From Deferribacter autotrophicus (GTDB taxonomy: Bacteria; Chrysiogenota; Deferribacteres; Deferribacterales; Deferribacteraceae), in the NCBI RefSeq assembly GCF_008362905.1, contig NZ_VFJB01000006.1:62001-126000 (forward strand): a DNA stretch of 64,000 nucleotides, given 5' to 3'. Below are positions 2 through 45,629 of this stretch, one piece after another. Each line of letters begins with the position of its first letter. The first letter of the stretch is position 1. The translations under genes and the position numbers were made by a program. Under the pieces are notes generated by a model, which was not told the origin of the DNA, searched no databases, and saw nothing but the letters and a program-made list of their open reading frames with translations.

Positions 2-373
2 CAATTGCCTGACTTTTTAAACAAAACGATTGGACTGTTATCTATGGCTGCAATTCCTCTTTTAATTTTTATCCTTGGCTTACAGCTATCTAATATAAAA
101 ATTTCTAGCAGGTTTTTAAGGCCGGCTTTAGTGGCTTCTTTTTTAAGACTGGTAATTTCGCCTATAATTGCTCTTTTTATAGTTTATTTGCTTGGTCTAA
201 AAGGTGTGGAAAAAAATGTAGCGGTGGTTCAAACCTCAGCACCAAGTGCTTTATTACCTTTGATGTATGCAATAAAATTTAATAGGTCACCAGAGTTTTT
301 ATCTACTGTGATTTTTCTTTCTACACTCTTATCAGGTTTTACTTTGACAATTTTAATTAATTATCTTCGTTAA
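2..373 (+). CDS. AEC (auxin efflux carrier) family permease, C-terminal part, 5' truncated
   Basis: The C-terminal ~123 residues of an integral membrane transporter; the reading frame is open to the window edge, so the true start lies upstream. The visible part has about four hydrophobic helices. A polar stretch around VVQTSAPSALLPLMYA resembles the conserved last repeat of AEC permeases, where a proline/serine-rich helix break precedes the final helices. AEC proteins export small organic anions such as malate or other carboxylates; the substrate here cannot be read. The gene ends with TAA, and a repeat element begins shortly after. The family call rests on this partial sequence only. Confidence 0.7.
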   Translation, partial: QLPDFLNKTIGLLSMAAIPLLIFILGLQLSNIKISSRFLRPALVASFLRLVISPIIALFIVYLLGLKGVEKNVAVVQTSAPSALLPLMYAIKFNRSPEFLSTVIFLSTLLSGFTLTILINYLR

Positions 374-388
374 ATATTTTAAATCCAA

Positions 389-627
389 CCTGGAGTCACC
401 CCAATATTTTTGACACAGAACAAGAAGATGTTATTAATTTCAATAAATTATGCGACAAAAGCCAGAGATAAAATATCTTCTTCATTCTCGTGGCACATCC
501 AGGTAACTTGCGAGGTAAATCCCTCTAAAACCGCCGTCTATGGCGGTTTTATGGGGATTTAAACCCGGAAGATATTTTATCTCTGGCGTATATAAACAAG
601 GTTTTGTAAAAAATGGGGTGACGCCAG
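389..627. repeat. 239-bp nested palindromic element (MITE-like or structured RNA)
   Basis: This element fills most of the gap between the permease and the MOSC-MogA gene. The outer arms 390-403 and 614-627 are near-perfect inverted repeats (CTGGAGTCACCCCA against the complement of TGGGGTGACGCCAG, one mismatch). Inside them, 461-480 and 568-587 form an exact 20-bp inverted repeat. Further in, 516-523 pairs with 554-561, and 527-535 pairs with 542-550 around a 6-nt loop. The whole unit can fold into one long branched hairpin. No ORF is present. It could be a non-autonomous transposable element or a structured transcript; the sequence alone does not decide. Confidence 0.75.
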
Positions 628-689: not shown

Positions 690-1619
690 ATGGGAAAAGT
701 TTATGCAATTTCCATAAGTGAAAAAAAAGGTACAAGAAAACATAATGTGGATAAAGTGCATATCAGAAATGAGCATGGGATAGTGGGTGATGCCCATGCA
801 GGTGACTGGCACAGACAGGTAAGTTTTCTAGCCATCGAAAGTATTGAAAAGATGAGAAAACTTGGTCTTGATGTGAAAAGTGGTGATTTTGCAGAAAATA
901 TAACCACGCAAGGTATTGAGCTTTGCAAGATGAAGGTTGGAGAGCGAATTATAATCAATGGTATCGAATTTGTAATATCTCAGATTGGGAAAATTTGTCA
1001 TCACAGGTGTGCAATTTATTATCAGGCTGGTGACTGTATTATGCCAAAGGAGGGGATATTTGCCGTCGTGAAAAATGATGGTGAAATTCAGGTGGGTGAT
1101 GAAATTGAGATTAAGCCAAAAGATGGTTTTAGTGTTGCTATAATCACTTTGAGTGATAAGGGGAGCAAAGGGGAAAGGGAAGATATTACAGGTATTAAGC
1201 TGAAAGAGTATTTGCGAGAGAAAATGGATATTTCATTCATCAGGTATGAAATGATACCTGATGAAAAAGAAATGCTTGAAAATATGCTTGTAGATTTTTG
1301 TGACCTGCAAAGGTTTGATCTTGTTATTACCAATGGTTCTACTGGCATTTCTCCTAGGGATATAGCTCCAGATGTTACTAAGAAAGTTATTGATAAGGAA
1401 CTACCTGGATTTGGAGAGGCCATGAGGATGGCAAGCTTTCAGAAAACTCCACACGCTATCATTTCAAGGGCTCTTGCAGGAACAAGAAGAGATACTTTGA
1501 TATTAAATCTACCCGGCAGTCCAAAGGGGGCTATTGAGAATTTGGAAGTGGTGATAGATGCTATCCCTCATACAATAAAAAAGTTACAAGGGGATAAAGA
1601 GGATTGTGCAAGAAGCTGA
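690..1619 (+). CDS. MOSC domain - MogA/MoaB fusion, molybdenum cofactor biosynthesis protein
   Basis: A two-domain cytoplasmic protein. Residues ~1-145 are a MOSC (molybdenum cofactor sulfurase C-terminal) domain, with the conserved GDAHAGDWHRQVS region and a cysteine in KICHHRC. Residues ~150-305 are a MogA/MoaB-type molybdopterin adenylyltransferase domain, with TNGSTGISPRD and the LPGSPKGA loop. MogA-type enzymes adenylylate molybdopterin before metal insertion; the MOSC half is likely to bind sulfur or cofactor. The start is preceded by AGAGAGGTGG at good spacing. It overlaps tmk by 14 bp. Fusions of this kind are known in anaerobes; the exact role of the MOSC half is not established here. 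Confidence 0.88.
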   Translation: MGKVYAISISEKKGTRKHNVDKVHIRNEHGIVGDAHAGDWHRQVSFLAIESIEKMRKLGLDVKSGDFAENITTQGIELCKMKVGERIIINGIEFVISQIGKICHHRCAIYYQAGDCIMPKEGIFAVVKNDGEIQVGDEIEIKPKDGFSVAIITLSDKGSKGEREDITGIKLKEYLREKMDISFIRYEMIPDEKEMLENMLVDFCDLQRFDLVITNGSTGISPRDIAPDVTKKVIDKELPGFGEAMRMASFQKTPHAIISRALAGTRRDTLILNLPGSPKGAIENLEVVIDAIPHTIKKLQGDKEDCARS

Positions 1620-45532: not shown

Positions 45533-45629
45533 GGGAGTGGTTGGAGTGCTGGTGCCTCCCGGGGCCTTCAAAGCCCACTGTTTCGTCCTTGTGGCGAAAG
45601 GAAGGTTCGATTCCTTCCCACTCCCGCCA
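45533..45629 (+). tRNA. selC: tRNA-Sec (selenocysteine, anticodon UCA)
   Basis: A 97-nt tRNA with the selenocysteine features. The 8-bp acceptor GGGAGTGG pairs with CCACTCCC, followed by a G discriminator and encoded CCA. The anticodon loop CTTCAAA carries UCA (reads UGA). The long variable arm lies at about 45580-45600. The T arm GAAGG-TTCGATT-CCTTC is perfect, giving the bacterial 8+5 stack. A weak promoter (TTGATT, 16 nt, TAAATT) lies 10 nt upstream. So the organism should make selenoproteins; selA, selB and selD are not in the window. Confidence 0.95.

Follow-up and report, generated by a model that had tools for sequence, protein, structure and literature searches.

The 64,000-nucleotide stretch of Deferribacter autotrophicus DNA analyzed here (contig NZ_VFJB01000006.1, positions 62,001 to 126,000; referred to as the window) carries, at positions 390 to 627 on the + strand, a 238-bp noncoding element that is one of approximately 45 copies in the genome. 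Sequence was the basis of all inference in this analysis, and on that basis the element is classed as a miniature inverted-repeat transposable element (MITE), a transposase-less derivative of an insertion sequence (IS) of the IS4 superfamily. Overall, it is very probably an IS4-derived MITE that targets promoters, contains a covarying core, and serves as a landing pad for an IS110-family element.

Extent and copy number of the MITE

An earlier note described a 239-bp unit of nested inverted repeats at positions 389 to 627, without coding capacity. Both the repeats and the absence of coding capacity were borne out, and an element does lie there, with its true limits at 390 and 627. The left terminal inverted repeat (TIR), CTGGAGTCACCCC... 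(390 to 409, + strand), and the right TIR, ...GGGGTGACGCCAG (608 to 627, + strand; the promoter-side end), are of the type CTGGNGTCACCCC and pair at 17 of 20 bp, with a single mismatch in the outermost 14. Internally, positions 461 to 480 pair with 568 to 587 at all 20 bp, and positions 516 to 535 pair with 542 to 561 at 18 of 20 bp. Repeat alignment and comparison with shuffled folds place this nesting far above chance: the folding energy of a 261-nt stretch was -96.9 kcal/mol versus -53.0 ± 4.3 kcal/mol for dinucleotide shuffles (z = -10.1), with none of 200 shuffles as stable. The motif AAATCC, said to flank the unit asymmetrically, instead starts a 9-bp direct repeat, AAATCCAAC (381 to 389) and AAATCCTAC (628 to 636; strand not applicable to either copy), which adjoins both arms directly and is identical at eight of nine positions. 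From this arrangement, the flanks are read as a degraded 9-bp target-site duplication (TSD).

A blastn search identified 100 pieces matching the MITE in the window's genome, and a covariance model of the core identified the approximately 45 core loci; full-length copies range from 228 to 240 bp. Matches to the TIR pattern numbered 115 plus 97, versus 28 plus 28 in a reversed control. Exact TSDs of 7 to 11 bp were found at 11 of 18 uninterrupted full-length copies. Dispersed noncoding copies with the same ends, TIRs, TSDs, and an autonomous IS with matching ends (see below) were thus all identified, upholding the earlier proposal of a MITE; a unique occurrence lacking matching transposon ends is excluded. 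Two full-length copies, at C1:223727 (L008) and C3:151287 (L014), are nearly identical yet have different flanks, which suggests a fairly recent insertion event.

Seven further elements in this genome have the same TIRs around unrelated interiors (L042, L043, L045, L050, L051, L056, and L059), the cargo of several being GTCATTGCGAG-type or GTTCAACGTTCAAGG-type repeats. Six MITE copies with differing flanking subfamily sequence (L006, L041, L047, L048, L063, and L066) contain another small element, CAGGGTGT[T/A]GCAC...GTGC[T/A]ACACCCTG, which is 101 to 105 bp long and lies at the same position in the P3 strand. Outside this genome, blastn matches to the MITE in G003, G005, G010, and G025 were short and probably due to chance, and the core model found no core in these genomes; those in G003 and G010 resembled a single unrelated orthologous locus, and the matches in all four genomes were set aside. 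An exact 20-mer scan of genome contigs gave two matches, possibly fortuitous, in unrelated metagenome-assembled genomes.

Relationship to an autonomous IS4-like element

The same TIR and A/T tail as in the MITE are found again in other families of this order, where TIR pairs lie 1,467 bp apart in genomes G002 and G008 and 1,473 bp apart in G010. The autonomous elements of related genera are 1,467 to 1,473 bp in size, with a single open reading frame of 454 to 462 amino acids between the TIRs, and supply the transposase with matching ends that the earlier note had suggested seeking. The only Pfam domain identified in the 454-amino-acid transposase was DDE_Tnp_1 (PF01609; E = 1.5e-11). NCBIfam returned mainly IS4, IS701, and IS1634 models and no model named ISLre2 or ISKra4; the best, IS4_2 and IS4_4, were both under their cutoffs, and the enzyme is therefore called IS4-like, with no named subgroup. 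The YREK motif, Y-(2)-R-(3)-E-(6)-K, a hallmark of IS4 (PMC2266710), is readable as YFSRWKIEESYKFMK in the L134 protein. Intact autonomous copies have TSDs of 8 to 11 bp, within the approximately 8 to 13 bp characteristic of the IS4 family. The partner thus resembles the IS4 family (subgroups IS231, IS4Sa, and IS10; PMC2266710) in its DDE_Tnp_1 domain, YREK motif, duplications of approximately 8 to 11 bp, and 1.47-kb length, and resembles the IS10 subgroup in having ends that start with CT. It differs in falling under the NCBIfam cutoffs and in following a base-precise, promoter-proximal target rule.

No autonomous copy was found in the window's genome, which leaves the MITE as an orphan; none of the PF01609 proteins of this genome lies near any listed TIR. 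The IS110 gene found inside some copies was considered as the autonomous partner and rejected, since other copies have an uninterrupted core at the place where it is inserted and the TIRs are those of the IS4-like element.

Insertion at a fixed distance from predicted promoters

When right flanks were aligned, TTG was found at a near-constant place. The mean score for sigma70-type promoters peaks sharply where the -35 hexamer is offset 11 to 13 nt from the right end, and the same scoring gave no peak in the left flank. Measured from the TSD, TTG starts exactly 3 bp beyond it in 29 of 33 insertions with an exact TSD, where 2.3% per site is expected. This spacing holds for any TSD length and for both classes of element (14 of 18 MITEs; 15 of 15 autonomous IS); by eye, two G010 insertions also obey it, and all seven core-less elements have TTG 10 to 16 nt out on one side. 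Positions 4 to 6 of the hexamer are A, C/A, and A, and among TTG-positive flanks the -10-like score is highest at spacers of 16 to 18 (p = 0.0015). In the window, a -35-like hexamer, TTGACT (640 to 645, + strand), begins exactly 3 bp (TGT) past the TSD and is followed at 17-bp spacing by a -10-like hexamer, TAAAAG (663 to 668, + strand; alternatively TATAAA at 661 to 666). The element is in fixed orientation just upstream of a predicted sigma70-type -35, whatever its cargo.

Among 34 tandem gene pairs, 29 have both genes running in the direction of the MITE (one site completed separately), and in about 38 of 43 copies, tallied by hand, the MITE strand agrees with the surrounding GC skew. Promoter targeting accounts for both biases, and no separate mechanism is needed. 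Selection at the RNA level for the sense orientation was considered and has largely been replaced by promoter targeting. Coupling to the replication strand was judged secondary, since genes and promoters are themselves co-oriented with the leading strand; replication may nevertheless affect MITE orientation alongside promoter targeting.

Oriented insertion upstream of sigmaA promoters has been described for TnGBS, ISLre2, and ISKra4 (p-MULT 3 and 4), at 15 to 17 bp with a peak at 16 (PMC3942029). Like these elements, the MITE is oriented and lies at a fixed distance upstream of promoters, predicted ones in this case, with its right end on the promoter side. Unlike them, it is paired with a DDE_Tnp_1/YREK transposase rather than a Mutator-type enzyme, and its -35 lies at TSD + 3 (11 to 14 bp) rather than 15 to 17 bp from the right end. 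The main text of the review on IS4 (PMC2266710) nowhere uses the word "promoter", and a literature search, with most subscription journals outside its reach, found no case of promoter targeting by an IS4-type element. The single-base insertion-site rule of the MITE and its IS4-like partner appears to be new.

A covarying three-way-junction core

Within the MITE, a 126-nt core (model R1; 462 to 587, + strand) is predicted to form a three-way junction on the + strand from a P1 stem (462 to 481 with 567 to 586), a P2 hairpin (486 to 515), and a P3 hairpin (516 to 561). Both hairpins covary, and the P2 loop is ATCCAG in the window and GTCCAG in most copies. Across 19 cores, 26 of 50 pairs changed on both sides and 96% of cells pair; the covariation score was 0.431, versus 0.180 for shuffled and at most 0.128 for slid alignments. 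Pairing in the core is kept through compensatory change.

The core model found the core solely in this genus, with none in 49 other genomes of the phylum, and neither core nor element matched Rfam at the gathering score. The sister species (G001) has a single core that lacks TIRs, located between the genes for an iron-sulfur protein and etfB (names read from the sequences; L088), and the window's genome holds the orthologous TIR-less core (L096, 1501 to 1626; C3:314134 to 314259). Between these two cores, there are about 9 differences in 125 positions, compared with 19% divergence (81% identity overall) for the region (p = 2e-4), a slow rate of change that suggests constraint. The TIR-less core upstream of etfB is a candidate structured RNA of the genus. 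Probably the MITE core derives from the etfB-locus element or the etfB copy was left behind by a MITE; the direction could be either. A structured RNA, the earlier note's other option, is partly supported: compensatory change between copies is strong, and a TIR-less ortholog is conserved in the sister species, but no Rfam family matches.

The MITE is like other bacterial MITEs, as described in PMC10969869, in being short, noncoding, foldable, and present at high copy number with TIRs and TSDs; it differs from that description in its conserved three-way-junction cargo, which also occurs without TIRs, and in its promoter-precise targeting.

IS110 elements in the core

An IS110-family element is present inside the core of nine MITE copies, always at the same site and facing the same way, and all type A copies of it (n = 9; 77 to 100% identical) lie in this site. 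Its recombinase matches the NCBIfam IS110 model (E = 6.5e-59) and has DEDD_Tnp_IS110 and Transposase_20 domains. The noncoding region upstream of the gene has a bridge-RNA-like fold (z = -6.4), the putative target loop of which holds both target halves around the core CAT, one as CATTTTTCTCAT and the other as the complement of CATTCTC; a putative donor loop matching the ends, CGGAACAT, can also be read from the sequence. The counterpart of this target in the window is at 474 to 492 (+ strand; left ...TTCTTCAT, core CAT at 483 to 485, right TCTCG). No IS110 element occupies this site, the left half of which differs from the guide at four positions, as counted from the sequence. From the match between guide and site, the core junction is predicted to be the programmed landing site of the IS110-family element, the insertions having presumably been guided by bridge RNA in the past.

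A second, 56%-identical IS110 type is present as three copies in the window's genome (L176, L178, and L180) and seven in G010 (labels within L157 to L171), mostly inside GTCATTGCGAG-type repeats. Its guides are ATTGTCAT and CATTGCGA, with CATCTCGA also serving as right guide in G010, where the guide and the present right flank of some copies match inexactly. As in the accounts of IS110/IS621 with bridge RNA at repetitive extragenic palindromic elements (PMC11208160, PMC11187229, and PMC1525189), a DEDD recombinase is preceded by a noncoding region with target and donor loops, and insertion is into a dispersed palindromic repeat. In contrast to those accounts, the target here is a MITE core, CAT is common to target and ends, and the second, 56%-identical type in this genome has been retargeted to the GTCATTGCGAG repeat.

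Weighing of alternative explanations

Several points weigh against a promoter-targeting, IS4-derived MITE. The promoters are predictions from a sigma70 consensus, scored with a general matrix of the E. coli type; TTG is missing from the +3 position in four of the 33 insertions with an exact TSD, and it lies at 10 to 14 nt in 37 of 47 flanks, not in all, the remaining flanks probably reflecting decay of old copies. The best NCBIfam IS4 score was 46.9 bits, versus a curated cutoff of 152. MITE and IS share their ends but align weakly across their internal arms, and mobilization in trans by the IS4-like transposase is inferred from these ends. A different reading of the flanks is that the transposase recognizes TTGAMA as DNA, promoters being struck because they contain it. 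TTG is the strongest signal, the A, C/A, A that follows fits, and at a few sites the downstream gene is antisense; against this, the -10-like peak at spacers of 16 to 18 and the location of most insertions upstream of a codirectional gene favor promoters, leaving TTGAMA recognition quite conceivable, at somewhat short of even chances. Survivorship, in which insertion is random and only intergenic copies before promoters persist, is highly improbable: copies are intergenic and the strand tracks GC skew as neutral co-orientation with the leading strand would predict, but neither the exact 3-bp placement while TSDs vary from 8 to 11 bp nor the opposite flank without a promoter peak is expected of it.

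The fold itself allows two other readings. The whole unit might be a host structured RNA or regulatory hairpin spread by recombination, with incidental transposon-like ends, as the strong covariation, the fold z score of -10, the slowly changing TIR-less etfB-locus core, and the sense orientation at tandem gene pairs might indicate. Most full-length copies have TIRs and TSDs, however, other interiors occur under the same TIRs, and the core has neither an Rfam match nor a counterpart in the 49 other genomes; promoter targeting accounts for the sense bias, because core-less copies and autonomous IS obey the same rule. We consider this reading unlikely. Hairpin-templated repair or gene conversion could also keep the arms complementary, in which case covariation need not mean a functional fold. 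One-sided changes in P1 are almost nil, as correction of quasi-palindromes would leave them, and, with two invariant U-G pairs left out, nonstandard G-U versus A-C pairs hardly favor either strand. Repair is countered by the conservation of unpaired residues (the GTCCAG/ATCCAG loop and AACCCG) and by the slow change of the sister locus, which is single-copy; we regard it as possible though the less likely account of the pairing.

Neighboring features of the window

Upstream of the MITE is a gene for a membrane transport protein (Mem_trans, PF03547; AEC-type permease) at 2 to 373 (+ strand), cut by the window start. Downstream, a gene for a fusion of MOSC and MoCF_biosynth domains lies at 690 to 1619 (+ strand), and the MITE abuts its putative promoter. 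A selenocysteine tRNA is present at 45533 to 45625 (Rfam RF01852, 62.7 bits).

Proposed mechanism and implications

On the favored explanation of a promoter-targeting MITE, the IS4-like transposase of other genera would bind CTGGNGTCACCCC-type ends and duplicate mostly 8 to 11 bp of target. Expressed from a source copy no longer in the genome, it would once have mobilized the MITE in trans. Either this transposase or a host factor that it follows would direct each insertion to a place immediately before a sigma70-type promoter, with the right end on the promoter side and the nearer TSD edge exactly 3 bp before the -35 hexamer; the target at the window locus would be the putative MOSC/MoCF gene promoter. 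The MITE interior, carrying the 126-nt core, would then have been entered by an IS110 element with both target halves in its bridge RNA. We give about even chances to a broader scenario, in which an IS4-like lineage gained promoter targeting independently of TnGBS and ISLre2 by reading the -35 or bound RNA polymerase, a MITE with a host-derived structured RNA became a bridge-RNA landing pad, and an IS110 relative was guided to another repeat.

The element would thus be no isolated hairpin but one link in a series of transposons nested in one another, a MITE copy being itself the landing pad of an RNA-guided IS110. If true, base-precise, oriented promoter targeting by an IS4-type DDE transposase would be a second safe-site solution beside that of the Mutator-like TnGBS and ISLre2, and insertions that obey the rule would flag candidate -35 boxes in little-studied bacteria. 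The IS110 pair would provide a natural case of related recombinases in one genome with bridge-RNA guides for two unrelated repeat families.
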